Below, one piece after another: positions 4,210 through 64,000 of a stretch of 64,000 nucleotides of DNA (positions are counted from its first letter, which is position 1; each line of letters opens with the position of its first letter). The stretch comes from Heterotrichella gracilis (Eukaryota; Sar; Xanthophyceae; Tribonematales; Xanthonemataceae): NCBI GenBank assembly GCA_032358255.1, contig JAULBX010014314.1, forward strand, positions 31,742 to 95,741, written 5' to 3'. The translations under genes were made by a program, and so were the position numbers. The notes under the pieces were generated by a model. It was given only the letters and a program-made list of their open reading frames with translations, was not told where the DNA came from and did not search any database.

Positions 4210-7200
4210 TCATTGCGCGCCGTCTGGCCCCCCCTCCCCCACCTCCGCCTCCACCGCCCTCAGCACGTGCAACAGCTCGTGGCATGCCTCGTCACCCGCA
4301 GCCGCTCCCCGCAGGGCGGCCCACAGCTTGGGGCGCTTGGACATGACGTCTGCGGGGGAGGCAGGGGAAGTGGGGTTGAGAACATGCGTCACGTCTCTGA
4401 CTGATGGTGGGGTGGTGGGGTGTGAGAATAAATGTGTAATGAAGGAATGTATTTCCCGTAACAACCCTTTGCAATTTGATATCGTCTGCATTCCAGCAGT
4501 TGAGCCAAGGTAGCAGCCACTGAAGGCAACCGGACAGAATTCACCATAATTAACCAAAAAAACTGGTTGCAAGAATACTTGGAAGGCCTTCAAGCAAATC
4601 CAACACACACAAAGTGCCCGCCTAGCCCATTCAAACCCTCCCACACCCACACACATACCCTTGAGCAGGCTGCTGCTGTTGAGCAGGAATGCCAGCGGTA
4701 TGACCCAGCGCCAGATGTGGTTGGCCAGGCAGGCATCATACAGCATCTGCACATCGCTGATGCACTCCGCGTCGACCTGGAGAGGGAACTCGCCGGCCGC
4801 TAGGAGGTAGCCTGCAGACAAAATGAAGTTTTGTTACAAATGTATCAAACCCTAAACCCTGTGTAGCGCACTCCGCATCAACCTGGAGAGGGAACTCGCC
4901 GGCTGCTAGGAGGTAGCCTGCAGAATTACATGGGTTTCAGGTCGCTGATTTGTAAATGTAGTACATTGTTTCACGCACAGGGAGCAGGGTTTCAAGGGGG
5001 CGTGTGCGAGCACGCCGCCTTTTTGATCCCACAAAATAGAATGCACATCAAGCAGGGACACCACATGGCGCAGTGGCATATGTGTGTGTTGGGGGGGGTG
5101 GGGAATAGGGGGCGCATCAGCATGGGTAGTGGCCACACCAGACCCTGCGCCACCCAAACCCTCAACCCCCCTGCGTGTACTGACAGCACATTGTCCGCTG
5201 TGGGCATGCTGTGCGAGGTGCTCTGCTGCTTGCCATTCCTGTACCCTAGTCCTAAACCCTAAACCCTATATCGTAAGCCCCCCTGCGCGCACCTGACAGC
5301 ACGTTGTCAGCGGTTGGCATGCTGTGCGAGGTGCTCTGTTGCTTGCCAGAGTGCAGCATGGCGGCAAAGGTGCCACCCATGGCCGCCAGGGCATCAGCCA
5401 GGTTGAGGAGCTGGCGCAACTGGCCCTGTTCCAAAAGGCGCCACGCGTGCAGGGAGATCACCTGCGGGGGGTAAAATAATAAATACATGTACTCATGCAC
5501 ATTGATTTGCACAATCTACTTCAATTTAACTCTACACCGCACAATCTTCTGCACCAAGCGGAGGAAAGGGCGTGGCATGTAACAGGTATGTCAACCCTAA
5601 ACCCTATGCCAGTGGGGCATGGGGTGCAGTGGGTTTGTGACAACATCCTGGACAGCAGGACAAGCACTGCAGCGCTCCAATGCTGCATCCTAAACCCTTA
5701 AACCTAAGGGTAACAGCCTAGGACTAACAGCCTGGCGTGAGCAATCTGATATTCCCCACATCCTCACTGGTGCGCCTGCACACGACCCCAAACCCTAGAT
5801 CCCAAACTTTTTCCAGCAGTCCCCATCCCCACCACCATCCTCACCTCGAACGCCTCAATCCCCGGCGTGAGCAGCCTGTCATCTGCTTCATCCCCACTCG
5901 TGCGCCTGCGCTCAACCACGGAGTAGCTGGTGCGAGGCCCGCCGAATATGGCGCCAAGCCACGAACCCTGCAGCACCAGGCGTCGGGGAAAGTGTCAGAT
6001 GGAGGCGGTAGAGGGGGTGCGGGTGCGATTTGCTGCTGGTGATGTAGAAGTGTGGGGTGCAGGGTAGAGTGGTGTGGTGTGGTGTGGCCGGCAGGGGAGG
6101 CACCACCAATGCCACCCTGGCTTTCTGACAGAAAATGCAAGGGAGTTTACACCAAAACCATCTAAAAGTTCCTCCCCCCAAGGCATACGCCCCGGGACGC
6201 CACGTCACAAATCGCACTCACAAGCCGAGCACGACCAAACAAGCATGTGCCAACCAGTGCCCGTGTGGCGTCACCCTAAAACCCTAAACCCTAAGAAGCC
6301 ACTTACGCTTGGCTGCTTCCCTGCCGCTGCCGCAGTGGGTGTGTCTGCCTTGGCAAGGTGCGGGGCCACCTCCCGGATGACAGCCTGGGTGCGGCCTGGG
6401 GGTATGAGGAAGCGCAGCAGCTCGGCAACTAGCTCAAACTGGTGCACAGACAGCGCCGCCTGCAGGGTGGTGGTGATTAGGGTTCAGGGACAGGAGTGGA
6501 GGGTTTAGGGCAGCAGCTCGGCAACCAGCTCCAACTGGTGCACAGACAGCGCCGCCTGCGGGAGTGGTCCAGAGTTTGGGGTTTGGGGCCAAGGATTTAG
6601 GGTCACAATTTGGTGCACTGACAGCGCGGCCTGCAGAGGTGGTAGGGTCAGGGTTCAGGATTTTGGACCACAACATCAAAGTACGTCGCGACAGCCCAGC
6701 CTGTTAATTCATTTGCCAGGCCCCTCCTGGTCCACCGTCATCCATAGCTACAGCTCCAACCCGCGACCTCCCAACACCCCCCCGCACACGCGCACCCCTC
6801 CCCCTTCCCCCCCCCCACACCTTAATCAGCAGCATCGCCAGCGCATTTGCCAGGCCCGACCCTTCGATCTGGTCCACCACCAGCAGGCAGCAGCCATTGC
6901 CTGCCCCCCCCAGGACCCACCCGCACGTGCCCACCCTACTGCCATCCCACCCTACCTCCACTTGCACCACCACCCAAACCCGCACCTTGATGAGCCTCAT
7001 GGCCAGCGCATTGGCCAGGCCCGACCCCTCAATCTGGTCCACCACCAGCAAGCAGCAGGCGGCGCCATGCAGCGCCCCCTCATCCAGCAGGCCCTGCATG
7101 AGCCCCGACGGGCTGCCCACCGCGGCAAACAGCGCGGGCCACAGGCTGGCGTCGGTTTTGCGCGCGACGCTGATGAGGATGTCGGGGAACTGCGGGGAGT

Positions 7201-10200
7201 AGAAGTTTAATGTCATTTTAAACTTAATGTAAAGATAAACACCAATTTGACATAATTTTACAACGGGGGATGTATTGGTAACAGTAAAATTAAAAATGAC
7301 ACCCATTGACATGCAGTGTGCCAGAAACTCAAGGGAGGCATTGCAAACGCTCCATTCAGGGTTTTTGCAAGAATAAGCTTGAAAGCGCGGATGAGGATTT
7401 TACAATGTAGCTCCTTACCTGCGGGAAGTGCTTGATGAGCTGCCGCGGCGGTGATCACCCCGGCAAGTAGGGTTTGATTAGGGTTTCAGCAGAGATTTAG
7501 GGCACCCTCCTACCTGTGGGAAGTGCTTGATGAGCTGCGTGGCGGTGACCACCAGGCGCGAGGGCTGGATGGCGGCCTTGCCGCGCGCGCTGCCCCGCTG
7601 GTATGCGCTGCCTGCCAGGTGTAATCCCGGGGACTGGGGGCTACTGTGGTGGGGGAAGGGGAGGGTTAAAATATGGGGATCAGGCTGTGGCTAGCTAGCT
7701 ACATGCATCCCAAGGGCGATCGTGTGGTGTTGTATACAAAACGGCCATTTAATGATAGAATAAAAATCATCTGGTGGACCCAGTGCATTCCTGGAGGCCA
7801 GCGCCAGCCCCGCATCCAGCCGTACCCTAGAATGTATCCTGGGAACCCCACCTTTCCCCCTTGGGCTCCGGCGACGCCTGGAACACGTCGTTCTCCAGCG
7901 CAGTGAACAGCAGCCACTCCAGCGAGCGGTTGAAGTGGGGCCCCAGCGAGTGCCTGGAGGCCAGCGTGAGCGCCTCGTCCAGCTTCCCCTTTTGCAGCAG
8001 GCGGCGCAGCAGGCAGGGGAGTACAGGCTGCGACTCAGGCAGGGGGTGGAAGCAGGGGAAGGCCTCGGGGGCCCCCGGTGCCCTGCTGGCGTTGCTGTGG
8101 CGCACCACGCGCTGGGTCACGCCTGCGGTGGTGGGTGGTGGGTGGGGGATGGTGGGTGGTGGGTGGCGGGGGAGGGGTTGCGGCGGTGTGCTGGTGGCCA
8201 GGGACGTGATGTGATTGTAGCAGTGGGGTTTGGGAGTTAGGGTTTGCGGTGTAGGGTTGCAAGTGCGCTCGCCCAATGGTGTGGTTGCGGCAGTGGGTCA
8301 GGACTGCAGACGTTGCCCCTCCCCATCCCCGCTTTGCTCACGTATCGGAGTGTTGTGGTTTCAGGCTGTAGGGTCTCAACTATGATCGCCACCTCCTACA
8401 GTAAAATGCGAAGTGGTACACCTTGGGTTTTTGGGGTACAGGGTTTATGATCTAGGGTTTTAGAGTGTAGGGCCTCACCTATGATTGCCACCTCCTCCAG
8501 CAAGATGCCCACCGGGTACACCTCGAGGTCAAGGGCTTTAGGGTTTTATGGTATACGGTTTTGGGGTTTAGGGCCTCACCTATGATTGCCACCTCCTCCA
8601 GTGAGATGCCCACCGGGTACACCTCGGGGTCAAAATCTAGCTCGGGGTCCGTCTGGCGCTTGGACTTTTCCCGGAACACAGGCGAGGTGGGGTCAGCCAG
8701 CGCCGACTGGAACCACATCTGCATGCCCGAGGCGCCGTAGGTCCACATGGGCATCTCAACAAATGCGGCTGCGGGGGTGGGGTGGGGTGGTGGGTACATG
8801 GGGGTGAGCGGGGATGGTGGGTGCTGGTGCCAAGTCACGACCATCTGCCAAGTCATCCGTTCCCGCAGCTGGAAACGTTCCTCATTAACGGGTGATTATC
8901 CCGTTCCAGGTGGTTTGCATTTACAATACTGCTACGTTTTCCCCTATTAACTACCCTTCTCTGTGACTCACCGTTGATCTGCCCATCTGCTCGACTGCAT
9001 ACAGAGGCAGCATCCTCATCAGGGTCTCGTCGGAAGCCATCCAGGGACTGCCGGGATCCCCCGCCCCCGCCATTGGAGTGCGCCGGGCCCCCGCCCGGGG
9101 TGGTGCTGCCCTGCGCCATGAAGGGGGCCTCCGGCATGGGTGCCTGGGCCACGCACACATGCAGCGTTTAGGGTTTGCAGGGTTTTCAGACAAGGGTCAT
9201 CGGGGGTATTGAGGTTTTTGCTGCGCTGCCCGGGCGCCATGAAGGGCTTTGGGTTCAGGGTTTGGAGGGTGCTGCACTGCGCTATGAGGGGGGCGTTCCG
9301 GCGTTGGTAACTCCAGCGTGGATGCCCCGGGCACAGCAGTGTCCAGGGTTTGAATGTTTTGCAGTCAGATTTCAGGGATTTGCTCCGCAACCAGTGCGCA
9401 AACCCAGCCCAGCATCGGCGCATGGCAGCCTGCACCCCACACATGCACAGCTCCTCAAACCCTACAGCACATGTCCCACACCCTACCGCCCATGCCCCGC
9501 CCACACACGCCTTCCCTCCAACCCCCCTGCCCAAAACCCTACACTCTCAACCCCACAGCCTACCCTAACCATGCTGCACACACCTCAAACTGGCCCGAGG
9601 CTGCCGACGGCAGCGATGCCGCGCGCTCATACCCCTGATTCGCATCCGGGCAGCTACTGCTCGGCAGCCAGAAGAACTCCACATTCTCCGCCAGCGGCAT
9701 CTCCGACCCTTGATCCAAATCCAGCACGCTCAGCCCCCCGCCCTCCCGCAGAACCACACAGTGGCTGGGCTCCGCGCCGCCCCGGGGATCCGCGCCGGGG
9801 ATGCGCGAGAACGCGCGGGGCTCGATGAGCGCAATGTCGCGCAGCGGGTGCCCCACCGACATCATGGACAGCTCGCGGACGGCGGTGACGATGGCGCGGG
9901 CAGCGGAGTTTGGCGCCACCCGGCCGCGCACGTCCACGCGCAGCAGGACCACGTCCAGGGGCGCGCAGGCGATGGCCACGTACCGGCCGATACAGTCCAT
10001 GGCCAGGGGCACCTGTGGGGGTGGGGGTGGTGTGTGTGTGGACTGAATGGTGTGTTGGTGGATGCAGCATCCGTGGCCAGGGGTGTGTGTGGGTGGTGGG
10101 GGGAGAATGGTGTGTTTGTGGATGCAGTCCATGGCCAGAGGGGGCCTGTGGGGTGTGAATGTGGGTGGTGGGGTGGGGGTGGGGTGGGGGAGAATGGTGA

Positions 10201-13200
10201 CTTTGTCGATGCAGCGTGCATGGCACCTGTGGTGGGTTGGGGTGGAATGGATTGGGGTGGATTGATGATTTTATGATGACCATGACTCAATCCCTGCCAC
10301 CAGAAGTCCAAGTCAAAACCGCCAAAAAACACAGATCCCCTCAGCTAAAAATAACTCTCTATTTTTTTTGGGGATACGGTCCGCACTCCACCGCAGCTGC
10401 AGATCAAGAGCAATGCACACCATGTTGAAACTGCCATACACCAACACTTCCACCAGCTAAATATCAAGCCCCCGCCGCTACCAAAGCGGCACCAACAGCA
10501 ATCCTTCCGCACCTGAAGCAGGCAAAATCCTAAACCCTACCGTACACCCTACACCAGCAACCTGCCGCACCTGAGGCAGCGGGAATCGCGCCAGTATGGA
10601 CGAGTTGTCTAGGTGGTATCGGGGGTACAGCAGCAGCTGGGCAGCTGCAGAGGCCTTCTCGCTCACCGCACTCACTTGCGCGCACGCAATCACAATGTTG
10701 GGCAGCCACATCAGGCCCTGCGCAGCATGCGGTTGGGTCATGCTTTCTCTTTTCAGGATGAGATGCTTGTTGCCAAGCTGGGGGGAGCACGGGGCTGTTT
10801 GCGCGCATGTCATGGCGTGGTAGGGGAGCCTTACGAGGCCCTGCGTGTGCAGTCATGAAGCACGCGTGTCCAACTATGAAGATACATATATATTTTTTCA
10901 GTACATTACTTAAAAAGATTCAAATTATCATCTTTTGCAGGGGGAAGGGACGGAAACCAACTTGTTTTTAGCTTTGTTCGTGAACCTGACTTGATTTTCT
11001 AAGCTGCTTTGCATTTAATGCAAATGACAGTCCACTGTACCCCCCACCCCCACCCCTGCCTACCCACCTTGACCTTTATCTCCTTCTCCTGGCTCACATC
11101 CCCAAACAGCCGCCACCTGCTGCTCCGGCAGCTGTACAGCGCAAGGCCCTGCCGCCCCGCCACTGCGATATCCAGTCCGTCGGGGCTGGCCGCGGCGTGC
11201 AGTAGTGGGTAGTTGGCGGCCATGTAGGATGTGGGAACCTGCGGGGATGTAGGGGTTAGGGTTAAGTTGGCGGTCATGTGTGAGGCGGGGTAGGGTAGGG
11301 TTTGGTAGGCCACCTGCGAGTCAGGGTGGATTAGGGTACGGGTGGCAGCTATGCAGGTGTGAGCACCTGAGGCGCACACAGGGTCCAAGAGGTTATAGAG
11401 AGGTGGAGACATCAACATTTATAATCATCTGCATACCACAAGGTCAAATTCTGACTACATCGACCATAAAAAAGTTGCCTGCTTTGAGGTGGATCAGGTC
11501 CGATCCCAGCCTCAATTTGCTGTTGCCATGTTAGGATTTTAGGGTTCAGAGTTTAGGGTTTACAATACTTTGAGATGCCTGACCACCAGGTCCGACCCCA
11601 TCCCTGACTCGTCCCATGTGGCGCTGTTGCTGTGTCTGGGGCTGGACAGGGGGTCGCTGAAGTCGGGGCTGCCAGAAATGAGCACAAGGCGGTCGGAGCC
11701 CTGCGGGGGTGGAGAGTGTGGTTAGAGTTGGTGTGATAATGTGCCAATTTGACGTGTGGGAGTGACAGTAAAATACCGCAGGTTGATGTGGTGTGGTGGT
11801 TTGTGGTGTGCCGGAGATGGGCACCTGGCGGTCCGAGCCCTGTGGGGGGTGGTGATGCAGGTGTGGATGGTTGTTGCTGTGTGGCGTGGCGTGGTGTGGC
11901 ATAATCCATGCTGGAAATGTGACCGCTGCAGTGCTATATGCATGTGGACCAAATGATATGGTCATCAGCACGCAGACGGCACAAGCAGCAAATCCCCTCC
12001 CTCCCACCCCCCTCCGATAGGCACAGCCACATCCCCTCACCCCCCTCACCATTACATGCACATCCCCTCACCCACCACCACCACCACCACCACCGCACCC
12101 ACATACCCCCCCACCACCACACCCACCATGAGCACGTGCAGCTCCTCCGGCTGGCACCCCTCCCCCTCCGCCTCCCCCCCCTGCGTGGCCTGCAGCAGGC
12201 GGTGGCTGGTGCGCAGGCTCTTGGCAAAGCACACCTCCATGATGCTAATGGCCTCCCCTGCCTCACCAACCATGAGCGAGTAGCCGTGGGGATCCCAGGC
12301 AAGCGCCGACGTGCCGTTCTGCGGGGAAAGGTGGGTGGGTCGGTGGTGCGGTGTGGGTGCACAGCGCTGTGGAGGGGTGGGAGATGTGCCTCAGCCCATG
12401 CATGGGTGCAATGTGCAGTGAAGGGAACGATTCGCCGGCTATGAATGCTGTTCCTTTTGCATGAATTGTTCCCAATGTGACTGCCACCACTTTGATTGCT
12501 GTCCCCAAGTCCAACAACTATCCTTATTGTGAGTGGGGTGTTCTCATTGTCCATTGCGACTGTGAATGGTGATTCCAACATGAATGCTGTCCCCCACTGT
12601 GAATGCTCCCCCCAAAGTAGATTCCCTCCCCATGCATGAATTGCACAGCCTCACCTCTAGTGGCACCGCAGACGCAGCAGGAACCTCCTCAGGGCTGGCT
12701 GAGGGGGCCGCAGGCAGTCGCCCTGTGTTTGCGCGGTAGGTTTGCCTCAATGAGCACATGAGGCGGCAGCCAGAGGCCGACCACACAGCCATGCCGCGCT
12801 TGGCCCAGCCCACCTGCAGTGGAAAGGTGCTTGAGTGCGCACGCAAACCGGTAAACCCTAAACCCTACATAGCAAGAGGCCGGCCACAACACCGCCATGC
12901 TGCCCGCGCTTGGCCCACCCCACCTGCAGTAATGAGCCTGCTGAGTGCGCACGCCTACCACAGCAGTCAACCAACCCTAAATACTAACCCCAGGCAAACA
13001 CACTGCCTTGCCACGCTGCTCAGTAACGGCATGCATCCCAACATGCACCTCACATTGGTTGCATATCGCACCCCACTGCGTGCGGCTGCGGTGGGCGCCA
13101 GATAGGTGCCACCGTAAACCCTAGACCCTACACTCACCGCCAGCACCGAGGCGTCTGGCGACCAGTGCAGCACCGACACTGAGCTAGTAAACCCTAAACC

Positions 13201-15088
13201 CTAAGACTCACCGCCAGCACCGAGGCGTCTGGCGACCAGTGCAGCACCGACACCGAGCCAGTGAACTCTGGCCTGTACTCCCAGTCCTTGAGGGAAAGCA
13301 CCCGCACGGCGTCCGGCATGCTGTCGCCCCCTCGCCGCTTGGGCGCCCAGCCAAACAGCGGGTACAGCGCCACCTCCCCTGTGGCAAAGCCAACCTGCAG
13401 GGCAAAGCAATAGTGGTTTCACGCCAGTACCATCATGCCCCAAATAGTTTCCGCCTAGTCTGACGAACCAGCTACTTTTCAAGGGTCATATCACGCCAGT
13501 TCCGTTAAGCCAGACACAACATCCACCTAGTGCGTCTCATCCTTGTAGTGCACCAGCCCCAACACCACATGGATGCACTTGTAGTGCACCATCGGAACAA
13601 CAACCCCTGCAGCAATCCCCGGCTCACAGAGCAAGGCAGCATGCACCCCACCGCCACAAGCCGCGCCTTGGCCCCTGAACCCTAAACCCTAACACAGAAC
13701 AGTGCGCCACCCACCGCCACAAGCTGCGCCTTGGCCCCAATGGCCACCTGCACCGCCCCCGACCCCGGTTTCGACAGCCAGTGGTTGAACTCCAGCTGGT
13801 CCAAGGGGTGCAGCCCCGCGTCCGACGCGCGGCACAGGCATGCCCTCCCGTCGCTGAAGGCAAACGCCAGCAGCTTGGCTGGGGGGGAGTAGTCCGCTGA
13901 CAACACCTCCAGGTTGGAAAAGTCGGACTGGGAGCTGTGCATGGAGGAGGAGGAGTGCAGGCCCAGGCTGCGGGTGTAGGCCAGCCCGTCGTGGCTGCTG
14001 GTTTCGCCTGGCGTGGGCGTCCACGCGAACATGCTGGACGACATGGTGGACAGGCCGGACATTGCGGGCGCCAGGGAGGAGCTGACCAGGTCAGACAGGC
14101 TGCGCGCGCCCCGGGCCTGTTCAGCGGGATGGAATGTGGAGTGAACGGGGGGGAAGTGTGTGGTCAGCACATGGCGAAGGCACTTGTCAGCGGGCAGGTG
14201 GACCACATGGGTGCATGGCATGTGGCCCTGTGATGGTGTGCTGAAAGTGCAATATGCGGTCAATGCCCTACACAACCCCACCCAGCATAGGCGAGGTCAG
14301 GCGAGGGATGTGTGGCAATGCATGCATATGCGAAACAGCATCCCCGAGTGAGTACCCCACCTTGCCCTGCCATGAAAACAGGTGCATGTTGCCGTCCGAG
14401 GTGGCCACCATGACCGAACGGCTATCCCCCCACAGCTCCGTGGCAGACACTTCCGGAGAGGTATCCATCTGCTGCACCTCCTGGAGGTAGATCACGGTCT
14501 TCTTGAAGTCATGGACCACCCTCCCCGCGGGGTCGGTGGTGCGCACCGCGCTCTCCTTGGAGATGTGCAGCCCATAAAAGTGCAGCACGTTCCTTGAGGT
14601 CTGGAGCAGGGAAATGGGCACCGGCTGAGCACGGCTGGCGTTGGCAAGACCGCCCACAACTTGCAAGTGGACACCATCCCATGCACCCCCCACACTGCCC
14701 ATGACAGGGGCTCATGCAGAGACAGGCCCTTCCATCGGTCAGGAGGGTTGCCCTTCCTCAGCCCACAGATCTGGCTCAAGCCCTTTGAAGGGAAAGTGCA
14801 ACCTGCGTCCCCTGTTGGCACCAGCACTTGACCACCCACCAGAACTGCCAGCAAGTGCCTGCTGCCACTCCAGAACGCCTTCACGTTTGCTCCCTCCGCT
14901 TCAATCGCCGATGGTTGACGAACGAGCTCGCCCAGCTTGACGCGGTGCTGACCCCCCGTCCACAGCTGTATCCCATTGCTGGTCACAAACACAAGGTACT
15001 CGGTGTCGAAGGAGATGTAGACCAGGTTGGTGCCCGCTGCTGTTGGGCCAACCGCCAAAGCCCTCGGCCAACCGTACGCAAAGTGCAT
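4210..15088 (-). CDS. RIC1: RIC1-like subunit of the Ric1-Rgp1 guanine nucleotide exchange factor
   Basis: RIC1 with RGP1 activates Rab6/Ypt6-type GTPases in endosome-to-Golgi traffic. Exons in sense order: 15088-14840, 14600-14361, 14116-13715, 13394-13212, 12813-12655, 12318-12127, 11700-11569, 11238-11068, 10717-10571, 10012-9584, 9143-8972, 8768-8580, 8122-7852, 7607-7514, 7189-6986, 6459-6307, 5967-5845, 5461-5293, 4811-4659, 4349-4210. Phases agree throughout and give about 1323 residues. The N-terminal WD-type half starts MHFAYGWPRAL and includes QLWTGGQHRVKLG and WRLFGDVSQEKEI. The RIC1 core follows: LLLYPRYHLDNSS, VRELSMM, LDFDPEVYPVG, FNRSLEWLLFTALE and ISVARKTDASLW. These match the plant RIC1 family in order. 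Intron 7 needs a weak GTATTG donor. Thirteen of the 20 exons have one or more exon-end copies in the neighbouring intron (see findings). Glycine/proline-rich exon 11 is lineage-specific linker. Confidence 0.9.
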
Positions 15089-17382: not shown

Positions 17383-20300
17383 ATGGCGGCACAGCTGATG
17401 GACACCCGGGGGATAGGCAGACCCAGCCTGTGTGACACAGTCCTCAACCGCTCCAAGCTGGGGAGCTCAACCAGGCAGCTCTCAACCAGAGCCTTCCACC
17501 CCAGGAGGCTCGCACCCGCTGCAGCCACCAGCCAGGCGCTGTGGAGGGAGGACGAGGGCAGGAATGCCTCTCAGAAGCACGCTGCCCTTGCTGCCCCGCC
17601 AGAGAGGCGGTCCCCGCAGGACTATATGGAGAGGCAGCCGGCAGGCGCGATCAACATATTCGGCAAGGAGAAAGAGAGGTGAGGGTGCTGCAGGGACTGG
17701 TGGGGCATACATGATGTTGTTCCCACTGCTTGTCTTTGTTAGGCTCTGGTCCAGGTCTGGGGCTGGTTTTCCCTGCATAGGAAGGGTCTGAAGTTGAGTT
17801 TGTGAACAGAAGTGGGTTCCTGCAGGACAGCAAGAAGTAGGCAGTTTGCACAGGTGGCAACACCCAGAGCAGTATGACTCTTCCTGGCACACACCCTGAC
17901 CCCATAAACCCTTAACCCTGACGCCTTAACCCTACTGCCTGCAGGCATGCCAGGCCCGCAGAGGCCAGGCAGCCACCCCCCCAGAAGCGCGCAGCCCCCG
18001 TGACCGCACCCGTTGAGGCTGTGGCTGCAACCGACCTGGCCAAGACCACCATCGCTGTCGTCCTGGCGGGCGGCCCCAGCAACAATGCACTGGCCCGCAG
18101 CAGGGCCATGCCCGCTGTGCCTCTTGGTAAGCCCTTAATGCAAACCTATAACCCTAACAACACACTGGTTCGCAGCAGGGTCATGCCTGCCGTGCCACTG
18201 GGTAAACCTAATCCTTTATTTGAAGGCCTTGAGCCCTTAACAACTCACTGGGCCTGCAGCAGGGCCATGCCTGCATTACCCTTGGGTGCGCCCCTTATCT
18301 GCTTTGAGATTGGTGTTTTTTGTTGGATCCGGACCCTTGCTGTTGTTTTGGATGCGAAGCACCATATCTGGCTGGAGCGGGGGGATTGGTCCACCCAGCG
18401 TAAACCCTATAGGGTTTTAGGCTGAACCCTAACCCTCTGCTGCAGGCTCCAACCTGAAGCTCATCGACGTGCCGCTGAGCAACTGCATACGCGCGGGAGT
18501 CAACAAAATGTGAGTTAGCGGATTTGCTGACGGGCCCTGTACATGTCCTGCTTTTTCTTTCCTGTTGCTCCATCTAGTGTAATTGAGGCAGGTTCCTGCT
18601 AATTTGAGCACTCAGCTGCCCAATGCACCACACCCAGTTTTCCAATATTCCTGGTGTGCACTCCCCCCATATACACCCCCCCATCCCCTTCCCCTGCACC
18701 CCCCTCACCAACCCTCCCACCCTCCACCCACCCCGCAGGTACGTCCTCACCCAGTTCAACTCCCACTCCCTCAACCAGCACATCAGCCGCAACTACCCAC
18801 CCACGCGCTTCGGGGGCCTCTACCAGGAGAGCTTTGTGGACGTGCTGACCGCCACCCAGACGGTGCACGACCAGTCGTGGTACAAGGGGTCGGCCGACGC
18901 CGTTCGGCGCAACTTGGAGGTCCTTCTGGAGCCCTACAAGGGGGAGTTTGTGCCGGACGATGTGCTTGTGCTGTCCGGCCAGGCGCTGTACAGCATGGTG
19001 GGTTGGGTAATGTTGGTGGTGGTGCTGGGTCAGGCGGCGTATAGCATGCGAAGTGGTGTGTGACGGTGGTGGTGTGGGGCCAGGCGCTGTACAGCATGGT
19101 GGGTGGCGTGGTGGTGATGTGGTGTTGGACGAGGTGTCCTGTTGTGTGGTGGTGGGTCCGGCACCCGCTTTTGGGTACTGCTCACCTCATGGCGTCGCAC
19201 AATCAGGGACCCTGATGTGGTTTTGTGTACTACTAAACATAGGCAGCAATGTTAAAATGGGCACTCTGGGCTTGATTTGCATGTGCTGGCAGGCTCATTG
19301 GTTCCTCCTCCTGAGGCACCAAGCCCTCCCCTTGCACCTGAAATCGACCCCCTTTTGCACCTTGCTGATCTCTACCACGCGTGCTATTTTGCATTGTGCT
19401 GACGTCTGCCATGTGCACCTCCCCCCCCCAGGACTTCCAGAAGGTTGTCGGGTACCACCGTGCGCATGGCGCCGATGTGACCATCGTGACCACATCGGTG
19501 GACTTTGAGGATGCGAGCCACAGGGGCGTGTGCAAGGTGTCAAACGACAGTGAGTAGCCAACCCTAAACCCTTACACAGGGTGTCATTGAGAAGCCTAGC
19601 CTCCCCCCACCTTGCCCATACTCACCTTAACCCTCTGATTTCTTGCTGACCCACCCCCCAGCTTATATTGAAATGCCCACACATGGCCCACAGCTATCCT
19701 GCAAACTGCATCTCGCACTTCAATTATACCCCCTCCCTACCCTCCGCCACACACACACACATCCTACCTCCCTTGCCACATCGCTCACCCTCCCCTCCCC
19801 CCTCTCGCAGACCGCATCTCCCAGTTCATTGAGAAGCCCAACCTGCACCAGCTGAAGGAGCTTGCCTACTGCAGCCAGTACGCGTCAAACGCACAACCAT
19901 TCGAGGCGTCAACGGGGGTGTATGTGTTCAAGCGGGAAGTGCTGGAGCACCTGCTGAGTGGAGATGCATTCTCCGAGGGCAACGGAGTTGGCAAGTACCA
20001 CTTTGGCCACCACGTGCTGCCCAGCGCAATCCAGGAGGGGCTCAAGCTGGTGTCGTACCACAACTATGGATTCTGGAAGGTGCGCTTTAAACATTGACCC
20101 AGGAAATACTCTAAGGTGTAAGAAGTTAATTGCAAATGCAAACACCCTAGTCCTGAAAGTGATAATCCTAACTACTGGGTAGGCTACATTTTGTCCTAGG
20201 AAGGTGAGCGCTGGTTGCATGCCACAGCCACAGCTCTTGTATAAAGTTCTGGATGGTAGGAGAAGCCAACTGTCCATAACAGGGAATAATGTTTTATGTT

Positions 20301-37602: not shown

Positions 37603-40600
37603 TCACGACCCCGCGGCCAGCCGCCTGTGCAGGTACTTGAGCACTGCATCCTCCACCCACTTGCCCTTGAAGAATCCTACCCAGCACAGCAACTACACGT
37701 TAGCAACTGGGTGCAAGGCCTGTCTTGATCCAACAGATTGCGCAAAGCAATTGGTCAACAAATGGTGGCGGTTGCGCTAGGACAGCGCTGCTTAGCGGTG
37801 CACGTGCAAACCAGAAGGATGGTGTTGATAGCAGTATTGTGATAGATTGAGTTATTAACAAATGAAACATCCCGCTTCCAGACAGGCAAATGCTGTGCCA
37901 AACCATCAGGAGTGATGATGGCTCGGGTGGCAGTAATTACTCGAAAATTGATCCAATACAGAACACGAAGCAAAGCCTATGGACCCCACTTGTTGGCCCC
38001 ACCGCAACAACCCTTATGAACCTAATTACAGATAATTTGAATTTTTCTCTCATTTGTTTAAAAAATAAAAAAAATTATGTTCCCACCTGTTCGCCGCACC
38101 GCCTCCAATTCCGATGCGCCCGCGCGCGCCACCACCCGCAGGTCGCTGGCCTGGGAGGCAACCAGGGCGTTGATGAAGTCCACCGGGGACTGGCTGAATC
38201 CCAGGAAAAACGCGCGGCGGCGGCGGTGGTCAGCCAGGCGGCGCGTGGCGGCGATGAGCTGCTGGTCAGCCTGGGGGTGGGGTGGGTGGGGTGGAGGGTG
38301 ATTGGCGGGTGCAGGGTGGTGGGTGCAGGGTGTGCAGGGGTGCAGGGGTAGAGGAGGAGTGGGTGCAGATAATGGGCGGCAGCCGGGGGCCGCTGGTGTG
38401 CATTATGAGGCACACATGCGGCCCTGCTTCCCCCCTCCACGTCCCCTTACTCTTACCTCTCCTTGTCCTGCGCCAGCAATACTATAAACCCTAACTCCTA
38501 CCTGCTCTATCGTCTTGCCCAGCGCCAGCACCACCCTAAACCCCACACGCTAAACCCTACACTCTCACCTGCTCAATCTCCTTGTCCTGCGCCAGCTTGG
38601 TGAGGAACAGCGGCAGCTTGTCTGTCCCCAGGGTGGCAGGCAGGTCGATGTCGATGTCGTAGCAGTCAGGGTGGGAGGGGCTGGGGCCAGACACGCTGCG
38701 GCAAGGGGGGATTTTCTAAAAAACAAAACAAAATTACTATAGACATCGAGATAATACTGAGTAGCTGAAGTTCATTTGCCGCTTATACATATGATTGAAT
38801 AGTTTGTACTACGAACACGTCTGCACAGAACGCGTTGGACTACGACTACACTGTTACGCATGAATGATTGTTACCATAAACAGGTGCAACCTCATTTGCC
38901 CTCCCACTCACTTGACTGTGTAGTTGATCACCACCGGCTCCGGGCATCAGGAACCCAGCCAGCAGGCGGCTCAGGTCCTTGAACTTGACCATTGTTGGCA
39001 ACAGAATAGACTTGAAAAATACACCGTTGCCCTTGTTTAAACCTTGCAACCTTTACTTGGGCCCCACACCCCACCCCACCACTACTCACTTGACTGAGTA
39101 GTTGATCACCACAGGCATCAGGAACCCAGCCAGCAGCCTGCTCAGATCCTTGGACTTGACCATCATTGGCAACAGAATAGACTAAGAAAACTACACCATT
39201 ACCCATTGAAAAAGATCTGTAATCTCTCCCTAAACCACCCATACCCCATTCGAATCCCTGGATCCACCACAACCCCCCACTCACTTGACCGTGTAGTTGA
39301 TGACCACCGGCTCCAGCGGCATCAGAAAGCCAGCCAGCAGCCGGCTCAGGTCCTTGAACTTGACCGATGTGGTGCGGAACAGCTTGGCCCGCAGCTCCTG
39401 GTTGCACTCAATGAGGGTGGGCTGGGTGGCGCTCTGCAGGCGGTGCCGGGTGATGTAGGCCCACATGGACTCCAGCACCTACGGGGAGGAGGGGAGGGTG
39501 GTGGTGGGGTGTGAGCAATGGGGGGCTGCGGCATGGGAGTCAGTACACTTGCATTGGGAAAAGGACTTGCCCTTCCGACTGGGACGCATGTTATTGAGAC
39601 TGGGACTAACGATCGCGAAATTTTAACTGTGAACTGGATGTGAGGCGTACTAAACTGTGCTGTAAGTACGCTCTGTGCAAAATCGTGAATGCAGCTGTAC
39701 CCCTTTTGCCGCACCTGCTGTCTTTCGGCTGGCCCCTCCAGGCCCAGGACCTGGCTGAGCACAGGCGGCACCGCTCAGGCCATGAAACTGTACCATTGAC
39801 TCTAAACTGAGGCGCATGCAACATGTAGCTGTACCATTTACTGTAACTAGGAGGCATGTGAATGCCCCATGCACCCACTAGCCGCACCTGCTGCCTTGTG
39901 GCTGGCCCCTCCAGGCCCAGCACCTGGCTGAGCACAGGCGCCAGGCGGTAGCGCTCAGGCTCCTGGTGAAGCTCAAGGGAGATCTGCACAGGCAAGGGGG
40001 TGGAGCCGCGGCGGCTGCAGGAGGGGAGGAATGGAGGGTGTCAGTGCATGCGGGGGCCCATGTGATTGTGTGTGCGTATGAGGTGCGTTGGTCATGTGCT
40101 TGTGTGAGAGGGTGTGCGTGTGCCACAAGGTACTCTAATTCTGCCACCGGATTTTCACTTAAATGTAATCTATCGTACTTTCCAACAACAAATACTGCTT
40201 CTCAACCCCTGCGCCCCAAGGTAGAGCTACACTGCCGGAATCCATGCAACCAACCAAATCACCAAACTACCCCTGCAACAGGTGCCACAATTCCCACACG
40301 AGACCGCGTCACCCCCAAAACCGGGCGCCTCACCGTATCTCAAAGCTGTCCCGGTGCACCCCCACGTGCTGCGCCCGCTCCCACACCGTCACCCCCTGCG
40401 CCCCCGGGTAGCGCTGCGGGTCCAGCAGGTTGACCTTAAGGCTCTTCAGGTAAGCTGAGAAGGGGAGGGCGCTGTGGCTGGGCTCGTGGGGGGTGCGGGG
40501 TGCGGGCATGGGCGCCGGGGTGGGGGCTGGGCCAGGGCCGGCACCCGGGGCGGGGGAGGGGCGGGGGGCCATGGGCCGGGGCGGCGGCGGGTGGGGCTGG

Positions 40601-48989: not shown

Positions 48990-49123
48990 CCGCGGACAAC
49001 CATGGACTGGCCAGGACCCCTACACAGAGCCCTACAATTTCTTTGCTCAGAGCAACTCTGCTCTTTGCTCAGAAAATGTAGGGCTCTGTGTAGGGGTCCT
49101 GGCCAGTCGATAGTTGTCTGCGG
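48990..49123. repeat. 47-bp near-perfect inverted repeat (long hairpin)
   Basis: Arms 48990-49036 and 49077-49123 pair over 47 positions with three mismatches near the outer end. The inner ~30 positions are perfect. The 40-nt loop contains two copies of CTTTGCTCAGA, one in each half. The transcript would fold into a long stem, resembling algal small-RNA precursors or a fold-back element. No coding frame or target duplication is evident. Confidence 0.9.
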
Positions 49124-52123: not shown

Positions 52124-52179
52124 CAGGCAAGGGAGTGTTGTGTCCCTCCCCCTCTGTGGACACAACACTCCCTTGCCTG
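52124..52179. repeat. 22-bp perfect hairpin with 12-nt loop
   Basis: 52124-52145 and 52158-52179 are exact reverse complements (CAGGCAAGGGAGTGTTGTGT core). Flanking direct repeats of CCACTGCCTGCTGG(C/G)CAATG occur at about 52061 and 52181. A third partial copy of the arm (ACACTCCCTTGGCAGTCTC) lies at about 52009-52028. The size is that of a small-RNA duplex, but the arms could also be a nested inverted duplication. Confidence 0.9.
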
Positions 52180-55064: not shown

Positions 55065-58000
55065 TCAGTCCCAGTTGAACATCATGACGATGACGGTCAC
55101 GTTATCCACCGTGCCTCGATGCAGCGATGCCTGCACCACCGCCTCAGCCGCAGCCCGCCCCACCTCCTCACTGGGGCCCCGGGCAGCCAGCGGGTGGCAC
55201 TGGATGGCCTGCTGCGCCACTTCCACAGCCTCGGAATCAGACAGCACGTCCCACACGCCGTCGCTGCCCAGGATGGCAAAGGAGTCATGCGCCTGCAGCC
55301 GCCAAACAAAAACTGAATATTTTTTTAGTTTTGCTACGTATTTACGTATGCAAGTCAACAGCATATACCATGTCATTGTGGTGGAGGAACAGTAAAATAT
55401 ATTGAGCTGACAAAGAGAAGGGCATCCACCTTGGAGATGGCCACAGAGTTGAACATATTATTTGTTAATTGAAATAAACAATAAACAACTTTGCATGTAA
55501 TATAGTTGGAGTGCATGGCGTTTGGCTATTTTCCATGGATGCATCCCTCTGGGGCCAAGCATGTAATGTAATGCATGTAATATAGTGCAGACATAACCTC
55601 TTGAACCCGTGCGCATACCTGCAGCCGAACCCGGTTCACGTCTGGGTCGCACTCCACAAATCGCCATGGCTCCTTGAAGTCAAGATCGCCTAGGGAGCGG
55701 GCGATGGCCAGGCCGCTGGCAGGGCGGTCGTGCCTAAGACAGTGAAATAACATATAAGAATACCGTATAAGTAGATCGCATAGCTACTGATAGCTACGCA
55801 GTCTGTCGATGAACAGGCGCATTGGCTAAGGGAGAGGAACCTTGTCAGCAAAGACAAGGGCATTGGGTAAAGTATGCAGCCCTCCTTGCTTGCCGCGTTA
55901 CGGTCAGATCTTTTGTGGGGGTTCCACCTTTCCTCGGGATTAAGCCCCTGGGTTAGTTTCTGGGTTCAGGGCGTGCCTGGCCTCGCAGATGATTCGTTTA
56001 GGGTTCAAGGTGTAGGGTTAAGGGTCTAGTGGCGTGCCTGGCCTCGCACATGACCCGCCAGCAGCGCTGTGGTATGATCCTTTGTTGGGGTTCAACCTTT
56101 TCTGAGGGTTAGGGTTTAGCGTCGTGCCTGGCCTCGCAGATGACCCGCCAGCACCGCTGGAACTCCACGCGCCCCCCCAGCGCCTCCACGCGCTGCTTCT
56201 CCTTGGGCAGGTCAGGCTTGTGGTCCTCGGTCAGGCGCAGGGCGGTGCCCGCTCGGCACAGCACCGCACGGCTGTCGCCCGCATGCGCCGTGTACAGCAC
56301 GCTGCCTGAAAAAGGGCACATGCAGGGCATGTCAGTCAGCGTCATAGCATCCCCTCCTAGGACGATAATCGGCGCATCGCTAAGCAGCAGTAACCAAATG
56401 ATGAAAAGCTTTGCGCGAACTCTTGAGCAAGTGGGTATTGCATAGCTGCACAGGAGTGCGGAGCTGTTGCTCGCATGCGCGACAGCACGCTGCCTGGGAG
56501 GGGCACATGCAGTGCATGTCAGCCAGCCAAATGACATGTAGCGAGTGGGTATTGCACAGCTGAAAAGGAGTGCGCGGCTGTTGCCTGCTGCCTGGGAGGG
56601 GCAAATGCTGGGCATGCCACGTAGCAATATGACATCAACCCAGAGGACCATGATTGGCGCATCGCTGAGCTGTACACTAGCTTCTAGGTGCCCCACCAAC
56701 ACCCTGCTTCCCTGTGCATAAAACCCCACACCCTAAACGCCACCTATGGGCAGCGCCACCAACACCATGGAACCCTGTCCACAAAACCCTAAACCCTATA
56801 TTCAAACCCTACAGACTACCTATGCACAGCGCCACCAGCGCCGTGGTTCCCTGTGCATACGCCCTACACTTTAAACCCTGCGTCCTATCTATGCATAGCA
56901 CCACCAGCGCCAAGCTTCCCTTGTGTTAAAACCTACACCCTACACCCCACCTATGCGCAGCGCCACCAGCGCGGTGGCCCCGTCCCGCGCCCCCTCCGCC
57001 TTGCACCGGTCGATGATCTCCTTGTCAACGGCGTGAAACACCTGCTTCAGCGCCGCGGTCATGGAGGCAAACTCGTGGGACTCGGCAGAGAGGGGGCCCT
57101 CCTCACCTGCAAGGATCAGAATGACATACACTTTTATTAAAACGAATTGTGATCTTTAGTTGATCGATGAAAGGTTTTATGAGTTCCTTTCTTTGTATGT
57201 ACTGCTTACTGCTTACACAATTGTTATGATGCATGGGATCCTTGTTGGCGTTCGCCCCGGGTGGGTACTGATTGGCATGCTGTCATTCCAAGGGCACGGA
57301 TAAGGGTTCAGGGTTTTGTTTGGGGTTCAGGATTTGGGGTTTTTAACATCAGGGTGTGTGTGCATGCAGCCCACCTGTGCAGTCCCGCAGGGCGCAAGGA
57401 TATGGGTTCAGGGTTTATGAATCCAGCCTTAGGGTGTGTGTGAGCGCAGCCCACCTGTGCACAGTCGCAGCGCGCAAGGATGCGGGTTTTGAGGTTCAGG
57501 GTCTAGGGTTTCACCGCTAGGATGTCTGCTCGCAGACCCACCTGTGCAGACCCTTAGGGCGGGCTCCGCAGCCAGCATGACGTGCAGCCGCGCAGTGGCC
57601 TGGTCAGCGCTCTTCACCCCATTGTGCCCGTCGTATAAAGCTGCAAAACTGCGGAACACGCCGTCATTGGCCACCGCGCTGCTCATGCCCAGGGGGTGGA
57701 AGTCCGACACGATGCAGTGCCGGTCCTCCATGTAGGGTCTGGCGCCTGCAGGTGAAAATCGCATGGGTGACGACGGGGTGCAGTATGCATTGCGCATGTA
57801 GGGTCTGGCGCCTGCAGAGAAGTCCATGGATGAACCTCTGCACTCACAACTTGTACGCTAGCATGTGTGGGTGCAAGTATGCACTGTGCCAACCAGTGGT
57901 GAGGGCCCATGCGGTGTTTGGTGCTGACAGCCCCGGAGGACAGTGTTTGTACGCGAGAATGTTTCACAGGCGCTGAACCACAAACTTACCTCGGGCAGTT

Positions 58001-60097: not shown

Positions 60098-63000
60098 GAC
60101 ACATAGCATGCCACCAAGGCGCAACTGTGTACCTGCATGTATCGGGCAGCAGCTGCATTGCAGCCAGCAAGTCTGAGCGCTCAGGCCCCCATGCCTCAGC
60201 GCTCTCACCCCCCCAGCGCATCCCGCTGCTCCACCAGCACAGGAAACCCTCCAGGAAAACCCTACTGCCGCGCGCGCCCCACCTGCTCCGCACTGCCAAT
60301 GAGCAGCTAGGTGACAGCACGGAAGCAGCGGGTATGTACTACCATGAATGGGTATAACCTCAGCCCCATGGTGCACTATACCCTCCCCGTGCAGTCAAAA
60401 ACAGCATCTGCAGAGGGAATCAGGTATTGCGCACACTTGCGTCCTCCTCAAATGCAAATGCAGAGCAAAGGAATATTCAATTCAATGCAGGTGTGCCACT
60501 TCGCAGTGCATATAATGAATTCATTCCCGGTGGCATTGCAATGCACCATCGCCATGCTCAACCATGCCAATGCCGATGCAGGCACGGGCGGCGCAGCACA
60601 CCTGGATGCAAGCTCTAGGGATACCGATGTCGACCTCCACCCGCCCCCATCCAGCCCCACAGTGCGGGAGGTTGAGAACGCCGTCGCCACCACCCTCCAG
60701 GCGCGGCCAGTCCGGCCCCCACCCCCCCCACCCCCCACCACCCCTGTGGTCAAGCCTCAGAAGAGCGGCAGGGAGGCTGCGGGCCCCGGCGGCGGCGGCG
60801 GTGGTGGTGGTGGTGGTGGTGGTGCCATGACAGTCAGGCAGCAACAGGCTGCGCACAACCGCTCGACCCCCGTTCAGTTCATGGGGGGCAAGGATTCGCC
60901 TAGCCAGATGCCTGAGCAGATGTATTCTGCCAAGGAGGCGGAGAGCCTCTCGCCGCAGGTGTGTGGGGGATGGGTGGCGGGGGCCGGGGATGCTTGGAGA
61001 GGGGAAGGAGGGTTTTAAGGTTTAGGGTTTAGGGGGATCGACCACGAGGGAACAGACGTCAATGCACAAGCACAGTGTGTGTGTGCGTGGAAGGCGTTCC
61101 TCCCGGGAGTCGCTTGGCCTAAAGGGTACACTGCACTGGTGATGAACTTGCGCACAGAGATCAGGGCCCAGCTAGAATAAAACCCTGAAACCCGAAACCC
61201 TAACCCGGTCCCATCCTAGCCCCTAAGATTCCTCCCATTCCTCCTCCCCCAATCTTCTCCCTTCCTCCCTCTCCAGACCACCCGCCAGCTCCGCCAGCTT
61301 GCGCTCAACATCATGCAGCGACTGCTGGTGCACGACCCAGACACAGAGAGAAGGCCTTTGCTAGCGACGAACCATAAACCCTTGACCCTAACACCGACCC
61401 TAGAAAAACCTGACCCTGGATTTCTAATTGCTAAACACTCCTCCCACTCCCCTGCACCAACCTTCTTCCCCTCCCCTTCAGACCACCAGGCAGCTCCGCC
61501 AGCTAGCACTCAACATCATGCAGCGCCTCCTAGTGCACGATCCAGACACAGAGAGCGGGGCACAGCTGGCAGCCGACCTGGTAGCCATGCTTCCCCCCCC
61601 TGCGGACGCCTCGCTCCCCCTGCAGTTCAATAATATCATGCAGGATGGGGCCATGGCGTTCCTGACGCAGGATGCCAGCTACAGCTCCCGGCCGGCGCTG
61701 CGCTGCGGGCCGGACGAGCTGGCCAAGCTGGTGAAGGAGCTGGGGAAGCTGGTGCGTAGGGTTTTAGGGTTTTAGGGTTTTAGGGATTAGGAGCTGGGGT
61801 ACCTGGTGCGTAGGTTTTAGAGTTTAGGACCTGGGGCAGCTGCATCTTGTTCGTTGCTGTTATGGTGGGGGTGGGAGGGTCTCCGCTAGGGCATTCCTAA
61901 CACGGGACGCCACCAATGGCTTCCGAATGTTTCTTATGGAAGGCTGCATTCTGGGCCCGACAAGCTGGCCAAAGTTGTGCAGTTACCCCACCACACACAC
62001 CTTTTACCCCCCCAACCGACCCATGCACCCCTCACTACCTCGCCCCGTCATCCCCTCCCACCCTAAAGATTTACTTAGTTCTGTGTGTTGTTTATATATA
62101 CATAAAAATACTTTTAATAATCAGTGTTAATTGTTATTTTACCACAGGGCGGCGTGGAGGTAGCCGTGGCCATCTTCGACATCATCGAGGGGTGCGGCAA
62201 GGGCTACCCCGCACGCAACCTCACCTGCTTCCACGCGCTCATGGCAGTGGCGGAGCACCGATCGGACGGGCGGGCCGCACTTGTGTTGCTGAGGCGCCTG
62301 CAGGCATGTGGCTTGGTGGCCACCCTACAGAGCTACACGCACGCCATGGGCGCCGCGGCCAAGGCGGGGTTTGTGGACCAGACGCTGGACCTGTTTGAGG
62401 TGGGTGTGTGGGTGGGTTGGCGGTGAGGTGGGCGCCATGGGGTGGTGCATGATGTGGGGGGTTGGTGTGAGGGGTGAGGGGTGGGGTTTGTGTGCGGTCT
62501 GACCGCCATTCTGCGGAGCCACACGTATGCTATGGGGACGCGGTCTAAGGACACCAATAGAGTCCCCTGCCCCGCCCCGAATCCCCACACAAACCCCCCC
62601 AACTCCCACACAAACCACACCCAATCTCCCTTGTTCAGGAGCTGCGCCGGGCATCTCTTACCCCCCGCACCATGGTAGTCACGCCCCCCTTACCCATGTA
62701 ATCACACCCAGTTACTGTACACTTCGAGACAACCACCCAAACCCCGTCTCTTTACCCCACTGACACGTATCTCAATCACCACACCCACCAAACCTTCTCC
62801 CCACACTGTGCAGGAGCTGCGCCGCGCCAATCTGACCCCCGACACCATGGCCCACACTATGGTGATCATGGCCCACGAGAAGGGGGGCAGGTGGGAGGAT
62901 GCACTGGCCGCCTTTCAGCGCATGGGGGCGGAGGGGGTGGCGCGCAACTCTTTCACCTACAGGGCACTGGTGGCGTCGCTGGAAAAATGGGGGCAGCTTG

Positions 63001-64000
63001 ACCTGGCACTGCAGGTGGGTGTGGTAGGGGTGGGTGGTGCGGGGTGGTGTGTGTGTGTGGGGTGCATGTGGGGGGGAAACTGACGTGCATGGGATTGGAA
63101 GGCTTGTGGTGGGGCCCCATGGGGGTAGTTTGCCACCCTTCCACATACAGGGCGCTGGTGGCATCGCTTGAGAAGTGGGGGCAGCCAGACCTGGCGCTGC
63201 ATGTGGTGGGGGTGGGGCTGGAAGGGGGGAATGGGGGGGGTTGGATTGGTGTGTAACCCTTGTGCAGGGTTTGGGAGTGTGGGGCATGGCAGGCTCTAGC
63301 GTGTCAGGGTGCAGAGGGTTTTGACATGTGAGCAACGACTTTAGGGCCTTAGCGTCGGGTGAGAAACCCAAACCATAACCCCTGCACTCCCTCAAGTCGC
63401 TGCTGGCTGATGCGCCTTCCTGAGTCGTTGTGTGTGTGTGTGCCTGTAGGCGCTCGAGGACATGGGTGCCGAGGGTGTGCCCCCAAATAATGTGGTGTAC
63501 CAGGCGGTGCTCAACGCGTGCCTCAAGCAGGGGAGCTTTGAAAAGGTGGGTGGGGGAGTGGGGTGGGGTGCGTTGGTGGCCAGCGGGGGGTGGCGGTGGG
63601 TGGGGTATCAGGCTGTGGGTGGTGTTTGGGCAGTAGACTTACATGACTGCTGATGGGATCACTACCTGGGGCAGGCTGCCTTGCTACAGGGTTCTCCATG
63701 CAAGCTGCACTTGCCTTTACCCAGAACCCTTAATTTCAAACCCTAAACTTTTGATTCCAAACCCTAAATCCTCATTCCCACCTCTCCATGCAGGCTGTGC
63801 CCGTCCTGCACACCATGTCCCGCCATGGCCTTGGCTTTGATGTGTTTACTACAGGCAGGCTGTGCGGATTCTGCCAGGCCAACCAGCTGTACAGGGAAGG
63901 GGTGGAGCTGGTGCTGGTGAGGAGTGGGGAGTGGGGGGTGGATGGGGGTGGGAGGGGAGGGGGTTCTGCTGGGGCCTGCTGCTGTACACGGCGGGGGGGG
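60098..64000 (+). CDS. Pentatricopeptide repeat (PPR) protein, 3' end beyond window
   Basis: PPR proteins bind organellar RNA and act in its processing, stability or translation. Exons: 60098-60331, 60395-60423, 60491-60958, 61482-61751, 62148-62399, 62814-63014, 63450-63545, 63794-63916, continuing past 64000. Phases agree. The N-terminal part is basic and targeting-like, then Pro/Gly-rich linkers (PPPPPPPTTPVV and a poly-Gly run). Helical domains follow: TTRQLRQLALNIMQRLLVHD, then repeated 35-residue units with TYRALVASLEKWGQLDLALQ, VVYQAVLNACLKQGSFEKA and YTHAMGAAAKAGFVDQTLDL. I count about five to six PPR units before the edge. Each repeat border tends to coincide with an exon. Copies of exon ends lie in most introns (for example 61276-61355, 62635-62660 and 63138-63215). 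The first exon shown needs an upstream exon for its start. Confidence 0.8.
61276..61355 (+). repeat. Upstream copy of a PPR-gene exon start, with acceptor
   Basis: The first ~80 bp of exon 61482-61751, including the CTCCAG-type acceptor, are duplicated at 61276-61355 and would read TTRQLRQLALNIMQRLLVHD identically. The intervening segment carries CCCTTGACCCTAACACCGACCCTAG. Splicing to this copy would need a donor downstream of it. None is obvious, so it is a likely decoy acceptor. Confidence 0.85.

Follow-up and report, generated by a model that had tools for sequence, protein, structure and literature searches.

The 64 kb window on contig JAULBX010014314.1 of the Heterotrichella gracilis assembly (the window hereafter meaning this whole stretch) carries genes for RIC1, AGPase, a PGP-phosphatase-like protein, an SWP73-like protein, PP2C and a PPR-type protein, in whose introns the adjoining exon ends recur as direct copies, often with telomere-type words (TTTAGGG or CCCTAAA) between them. 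Together with 200 kb of a second contig (C2:100001-300000) it makes up the 264 kb surveyed here, out of a genome of 68.5 Mb in 903 contigs. Positions labelled joined C2 follow the numbering of the C2 stretch itself, such that joined 164487-164958 corresponds to genome C2:264487-264958. Gene models were obtained with a self-training two-strand gene finder written for this analysis, the exons being predictions, and comprise 55 genes with 375 introns of a median length of 277 bp over both stretches. Where homologues existed, predicted exons were corrected by homologue alignments (tblastn for RIC1), among them the RIC1 copies near 7430, 6540 and 6820-6910, which the gene finder had misread as exons. 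The AGPase of the window is 76% identical to one homologue and about 50% to those of Trebouxia and Coccomyxa, and the top match among eight for RIC1 comes from Trebouxia; by these protein affinities the host is probably a trebouxiophyte-like green alga.

A search for local direct repeats, with low-complexity matches removed and partners lying within about 800 bp, yielded 137 pairs across the 264 kb. When the same chunks were compared with DNA half a contig away, at both chunk sizes, 4 of 15822 chunks reached the score and none was left after the complexity filter. A predicted splice junction is spanned by about 100 of the 137 pairs, and the span of a pair reaches 108 of the 375 introns (33/95 in the window and 75/280 in C2). 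Junction-spanning pairs occur in 8 of the 12 gene models of the window and in 28 of the 43 in C2; the pattern is real and extends beyond the window. The window models 37510-39163 and 39281-44307 are probably one gene, and counted as such they bring the affected window genes to seven, matching the initial annotation. The RIC1 repeats quoted there were found again at 13206-13269/13132-13195, 8542-8633/8441-8532 (with 8357-8409) and 6411-6466/6507-6562 (with 6606-6659). Its figure of at least 25 copied exon borders is plausible in view of 32 window junction pairs containing 39 predicted splice sites, although part of those sites sit in copies misread as exons.

The copying of exon ends was quantified in the 312 of 375 introns for which both probes comprised at least 30 nt, using an exon-end probe of 60 nt and a score of at least 22. 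An exon end was copied in its own adjacent intron in 8.3% of cases on the donor side and 7.1% on the acceptor side, compared with 0 to 0.1% for length-matched other introns and 0.3% for the reverse complement. For stretches deeper in the exon the share was 0.6% of 166 on the donor side and 0% of 174 on the acceptor side. Recognisable copies contain 10% of all intron bases. The pairs are direct and their units short, with quartiles of the junction-pair offset at 96 and 196 bp and a gap of at most 30 bp in 64 of the 137 pairs, larger in the other 73. At a median identity of 0.845 the two copies of a junction pair differ at about 15% of sites and are therefore not assembly duplicates. The divergence also makes the copy edges indistinct, and with them the register between break-site nucleotides and the telomere repeat; a second, allelic copy of a 2.4-kb RIC1 stretch was not found in the organism's own genome.

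The copies are collinear through the splice junction. Among 100 junction pairs, the predicted donor lies in the upstream copy only in 32 and in the downstream copy only in 4, and the predicted acceptor in the downstream copy only in 22 and in the upstream copy only in 2; the remaining 40 have another mix of sites or no predicted site. The AGPase homologue with 76% identity aligns across eight junctions without insertion, with 24/24 residues at seven of them and 18/24 at the first. For RIC1, two homologues align with 24/24 residues and no insertion over junction 13212/12813, and the same homologue residues match the exon end (to 8578) as well as its copy (8530-8477), the alignment resuming with the next exon at 8123. 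Other RIC1 junctions in part align poorly or with small homologue insertions and are not informative for either side. At the homologue-tested RIC1 and AGPase junctions these alignments fit a use of the outermost splice sites, so that there the extra exon ends are intronic passengers.

Copy offsets of the 100 junction pairs are independent of the reading frame (33, 32 and 35 per frame class), which leaves in-frame alternative exons unsupported as a general explanation, though individual copies may serve as exons in this species. A clean set was formed from the same pairs by keeping one nearest pair per splice site with the copy wholly within a predicted intron (27 donor and 20 acceptor cases; median exon part 46 nt, the copy starting at a median of 52 nt from the donor). 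Its offsets are a multiple of three in 7/27 donor and 2/20 acceptor cases, in a set that is biased by the gene finder absorbing in-frame copies as exons. Decoy motifs are retained, with GT in 19/27 donor copies and AG in 16/20 acceptor copies. Selection on decoy donors was considered and rejected, the identity of donor motifs between copies (99/119) showing no clear difference from that elsewhere (1569/1941). Acceptor motifs are more alike between copies (53/55) than sequence elsewhere (1237/1473).

The window contains 54 TTTAGGG words compared with 5.8 in shuffles (largest shuffle 12), and two rotations of the telomere word rank as the most enriched 7-mers. Introns hold 1387 matches of the telomere word family against 77-198 for each of 19 permuted families. 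Runs of the word amount to 3.73 per kb in introns, 1.34 in intergenic DNA and 0.37 in exons; within introns they reach 11.5 per kb in the gaps between copies, 7.6 in the copies, 3.1 in the 60 bp outside the copies and 2.7 away from repeats. At the centre of the joint the words cover 23% of bases versus 3.6% in introns at large, dropping to 8-10% within about 30 nt. For the joint set, composed of the 75 junction and intron-intron pairs out of 137 with a gap of at most 60 bp, a word lies within 10 nt of 35 joints, compared with 9.5 for random intron segments and 16.4 elsewhere in the same introns, and each of the 19 permuted families is found at no more than 5 joints. Telomere words are enriched at these joints. 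In the clean set, a word stands between the real site and the copy in 21/27 donor and 11/20 acceptor cases (window 8/10 and 3/5, C2 13/17 and 8/15), where position-matched repeat-free introns predict 5.8 and 2.9. The earlier statement that most spacers hold telomere words consequently applies to these clean cases but not to all joints.

Words are present at the joint only in 15 clean cases (7 donor, 8 acceptor) and beyond the outer copy only in 2 (0 donor, 2 acceptor; p = 0.002, this and any p value being rough because multi-copy families are non-independent events). The joint and the stretch past the outer copy each hold a word in 14/27 donor and 3/20 acceptor cases. Words arose both before and with duplication. 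Starting from the words instead of the pairs, similar flanks were detected at 108/400 intronic words versus 179/1994 random intron positions, near donors at 51/136 words versus 143/1218 word-free positions, and in intergenic DNA at 7/113 words versus 39/1987 random positions; a direct duplication flanking the word on both sides is present for a minority of words. Eight loci chosen only for a perfect 21-nt array add little: a score of at least 22 is reached by two of them, of which one (L002) lies within the C2 stretch, and one more scores 21.5, so that the independent yield is 1/7. Even in introns free of repeats, words peak at 10-40 nt inside the donor, covering 7.5, 8.9 and 6.2% of bases in the successive 10-nt bins and 0.7-3.1% further in; this peak is perhaps the residue of old events, since short introns would tolerate insertions solely between the donor and the branch region. 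As a side observation, in introns of at least 200 bp donor-near and acceptor-near words co-occur in 23/257 versus 13.4 expected, as if words stood at both joints of an insertion.

The intragenic words match the host's own telomere repeat. Seven-unit TTTAGGG arrays occur in 11 contigs, of which C70, C140, C609, C712, C717 and C770 have their arrays starting within the first 140 bases in telomere orientation, and the other five have theirs in the opposite orientation at higher coordinates; four-unit TTTTAGGG arrays are absent from the genome contigs. The genome encodes a telomerase RNA-binding domain. A search for CTC1 gave no match, but its controls gave no match either. Furthermore, two separate long TTTAGGG arrays lie about 200 bp apart at C173:89224-89497.

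Table 1. Duplicated exon ends and associated copies in the window.
Feature	Span	Strand	Copies	Splice sites, words and domains
RIC1 donor-end duplication	13132..13270	-	exon end 13206-13269, copy 13132-13195 (64 nt, 94%)	donor 13211; telomere tract between, word 13192-13198
RIC1 donor-end, three copies	8357..8634	-	8545-8634, 8444-8533, 8357-8450; 89% (8542-8633/8441-8532)	real donor 8579; CCCTAAA words in unit
RIC1 acceptor-side, three copies	6411..6660	-	6411-6466, 6507-6562 (93%), 6606-6659 (76%)	real acceptor near 6459; tblastn next exon start 6465
RIC1 donor-side	6756..7080	-	6916-7080 / 6756-6912	real donor near 6985; copy misread as exon
RIC1 donor-side	7411..7571	-	7507-7571 / 7411-7479	spacer TTTAGGG at 7496-7502
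RIC1 donor-side	5152..5349	-	5263-5349 / 5152-5236	donor 5292; spacer telomere word
RIC1 acceptor-side	4762..4925	-	4762-4819 / 4868-4925	49-nt spacer with CCCTAAA
RIC1 acceptor-side	12775..12984	-	12775-12872 / 12882-12984	telomere word upstream of each copy
AGPase donor-end, three copies	18081..18288	+	18081-18140, 18156-18213, 18213-18288	donor 18126; junction 18126/18446 aligned 24/24, no insertion
AGPase donor-end	18915..19156	+	18915-19009/19017-19110, 18968-19057/19069-19156	donor 18997; junction 18997/19432 aligned 24/24, no insertion; both displayed spacers without telomere word
PGP-phosphatase-like donor-end	33643..33809	+	33643-33717 / 33735-33809	Pfam PF09419
PGP-phosphatase-like donor-end	34057..34406	+	34057-34191 / 34271-34406	
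SWP73-like donor-end	38485..38597	-	38551-38597 / 38485-38530	spacer CCCTAAA; SWIB domain in neighbouring model
SWP73-like, three tandem copies	41144..41457	-	41342-41457, 41256-41344, 41144-41259	telomere words between; SWIB domain PF02201
PP2C donor-end	55892..56160	-	56088-56160 / 56001-56070, further similar stretch 55892-55993	telomere words between copies; Pfam PF00481
PP2C donor-end	57319..57562	-	57488-57562 / 57319-57395	
PPR-type acceptor-side	61244..61577	+	61244-61371 / 61452-61577	two telomere words between; both copies read as exon; Pfam PPR

In Table 1 the name SWP73 is carried over from the initial annotation. Other repeats were seen in the surveyed DNA. An element of about 66 bp with ATGCATG-like words lies in a PP2C intron (55508-55577). 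Of the 40 other places listed for a 3.9-kb query, 36 match this element, with up to 97% identity, and one of these matches lies at window 1744-1800; ATGCATG is among the most enriched 7-mers, and the element looks like a short dispersed repeat. C2:264487-264958 is an array of about five units of 63 bp, in most of which a 14-nt 'exon' is accompanied by an acceptor-like site, a donor and a telomere word. An intergenic tandem repeat at window 2189-3130 has copies about 260-340 bp apart.

The initial annotation had proposed that introns grew by tandem duplication across exon-intron joints. Duplication itself and the concentration of words at the joints bear this out, whereas a special preference for exon ends is weakened by random placement of the 137 pairs, under which the mean numbers are 59 junction, 24 intron-intron, 38 intergenic, 9 exon-exon and 7 other pairs; observed were 98, 18, 12, 3 and 6, respectively. 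As introns are short and a pair spans a few hundred bp, random placement already yields the 59 junction pairs. In simulated decay at 25% divergence per copy, a neutral pair is detected with a frequency of 0.27 versus 0.83 for one with a constrained exon copy. An exon-end targeting mechanism was therefore dropped, random placement and the faster decay of neutral pairs plausibly explaining much of the pattern. Survivorship plausibly makes up most of the roughly 2.2-fold excess of junction pairs relative to intron interiors, and we read the exon-end pattern as mainly geometry and survivorship; the intergenic shortage (12 versus 38 expected) is left unaccounted for by either.

We favour, with a probability of roughly 0.6, an account in which the repair of staggered breaks repeatedly gave rise to tandem duplications, many of them with telomere-type sequence at the joint, which were kept where splicing hides them. 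Nicks on opposite strands would give a staggered break, both overhangs would be filled in and the ends joined, turning a stretch B into left-B-joint-B-right, with units of tens to a few hundred bp arising again and again in genes. The direct-only, tandem copies are consistent with such fill-in and end joining. The word at the joint, on either strand, may have been present already or have been added, most simply by telomerase acting on the exposed 3' end before a CST-type fill-in, as at telomeres. Extension of the 3' end in this way would leave TTTAGGG on either strand at the joint, and the 38 word-bearing joints among 90 are indeed split into 20 C-rich and 18 G-rich. The staggered breaks, and telomerase with CST-type fill-in as the agent at the joints, are what we infer. 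A duplication inside an exon would usually be purged, but one over a splice junction would be tolerated, since splicing at the outermost donor or acceptor would turn the additional exon end into intron. In short introns most duplications that touch the intron would include an exon end, and later rounds could amplify a unit already bearing a word. The direct-tandem geometry, the divergence of the copies, the use of outer sites in gene models and at homologue-tested junctions and the enrichment of words at joints are the observations on which this account builds. Taken together, they suggest that break repair involving the telomere machinery helped to lengthen introns.

Several observations weigh against this account. 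No telomere word lies within 10 nt of 40 of the 75 joints or between site and copy in 15 of the 47 clean cases, and some large, similar pairs lack it altogether (e.g. joined C2 21076-21528 and 118003-118496). In the 17 of 47 cases where the joint and the stretch past the outer copy each hold a word, the word forms part of the unit, and no addition at that joint is required. Among eight intergenic pairs only one has a word at its joint. Furthermore, the comparison is confined to this one genome. A bolder form is possible, though we lean away from it: telomerase would routinely repair staggered intragenic breaks in this lineage and telomere-marked tandem duplication would be a main engine of intron growth, leaving decoy splice sites, about 10% of intron bases still as copies, and older events as a word 10-40 nt from the donor.

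An unlikely but still serious alternative holds that the words came first, as separate short insertions into a tolerant stretch of the intron, and that they then served as weak spots where slippage or unequal exchange expanded the unit around them into a small tandem array, without telomerase at the duplication. The donor-proximal peak in repeat-free introns, the same 14 donor and 3 acceptor cases with a word in both copies and the array at joined C2 190458-190931, whose words align as part of the unit, all suit it. The ratio of 15 joint-only to 2 outer-only words, however, speaks for words that came with the duplication, and two-copy families with a joint-only word require no earlier word.

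It is improbable that the words are functional RNA or DNA elements under selection (splicing enhancers, branch sites or telo-box-like regulators), with the duplications being incidental. Word peaks are position-specific near both splice sites, and at 20-40 nt from acceptors 129 C-rich face 49 G-rich sense-strand matches (overlapping and non-independent), a bias that would suit a branch-site or pyrimidine-tract role and could stem from the use of branch sites or from G-rich words being avoided there. Near acceptors the C-rich strand is preferred, and words may be used as branch sites. By contrast, 193 C-rich and 246 G-rich matches 10-40 nt inside donors reveal no clear strand preference, and across introns as a whole it is slight (220 to 183 runs). 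Both strands being alike near donors, where an intronic enhancer would be specific to the sense strand, argues against an RNA enhancer and hence against that suggestion of the initial annotation. Moreover, such a function does not explain why words co-locate with duplication joints beyond position-matched controls.

Template switching, also raised initially, or theta-type end joining might have copied neighbouring exon ends into intronic breaks. The 10-50 nt spacers with mixed filler would agree with this, as would the microhomology-like stretch with which, judged by eye, some copies start. Templated insertions from template switching are expected to be often inverted, yet the exon-end copies are almost solely direct (inverted 0.3%) as well as tandem and collinear through the junction, which makes such copying very improbable. 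Direct repeats around introns are expected under introner-like or other mobile elements and under AGGT tandem-duplication intron gain, and are present here; nevertheless, an origin of the introns by either route is scarcely credible, because similarity to an intron in a different gene was seen for only 24 of 375 introns, on which ground an introner family was rejected, and none of the 100 junction pairs has a predicted donor of the upstream copy aligned to a predicted acceptor of the downstream copy. An artefact of assembly or of home-made gene models is just as hard to credit: the models lack RNA evidence and several copies were read as exons, but junction-pair copies differ at about 15% of sites, the raw repeats are independent of gene models, and RIC1 and AGPase junctions agree with homologues.

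In our view, the lengthening of introns has mostly been argued from indirect evidence. Here the copies may be datable events with a molecular tag at the seam, which would open to direct testing their rate, the geometry of the breaks and the part that telomere enzymes play in gene-body repair. The decoy copies furthermore provide a natural experiment in how similar nearby sites are ignored by the spliceosome.

Among known systems, mammalian interstitial telomeric sequences at double-strand breaks are the closest, with flanking duplications in horse, rodents and primates and the horse cases ascribed to staggered breaks; target duplication was the sole change at 3/66 horse loci (2 more with deletion and addition), 6/130 rodent and 4/25 primate loci, and the intron share of the human sequences looked random, in the sections of those papers considered here (PMC7215372, PMC2246262). 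Alga and mammals have in common telomere words inside chromosomes and a duplicated target at a minority of loci. In the alga, however, 108/400 intronic words have similar flanks (with a background of 9%, such that the true share is lower) and the words are concentrated in introns (3.73 per kb, against 1.34 intergenic and 0.37 exonic). The mammalian studies compared empty sites, whereas the algal case draws on one genome.

Tandem duplications from paired nicks in plants were reportedly described by Schiml and others in 2016. Work on human and mouse cells shows tandem duplications arising from staggered breaks that have 3' overhangs (43 bp in one experiment), by way of CST and Pol alpha-primase, which also carry out the fill-in at telomeres (PMC8355091). 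With these CST/Pol alpha-primase/end-joining duplications the algal ones share the direct, tandem arrangement and the short units; telomere words are enriched at the algal joints and go unmentioned in the passages of PMC8355091 considered. Plant telo boxes (AAACCCTA) are, according to the corresponding parts of PMC3022908, enriched in 5' UTRs but show no enrichment in introns (Arabidopsis introns hold 150.7 per Mb and those of rice 72), and an origin by telomerase and error-prone repair was proposed for them (PMC3022908). The word is identical and the proposed origin similar, but in the alga it reaches 2035 per Mb in introns and 505 in intergenic DNA, both strands being counted (the plant strand counting may differ), and it is tied to duplication joints.

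Tandem duplication and staggered-break repair have also been proposed as routes of intron gain, through the same mutational event. Those ideas account for new introns, whereas the algal duplications extend introns already in place, and none of the 100 junction pairs shows the gain geometry. A literature search, outside of which most subscription papers lay, surfaced no description of exon-end copies with telomere words at their joints. Telomere repeats with flanking duplications are already known in mammals as a minority; the density of telomere words and their link to splice junctions look new.

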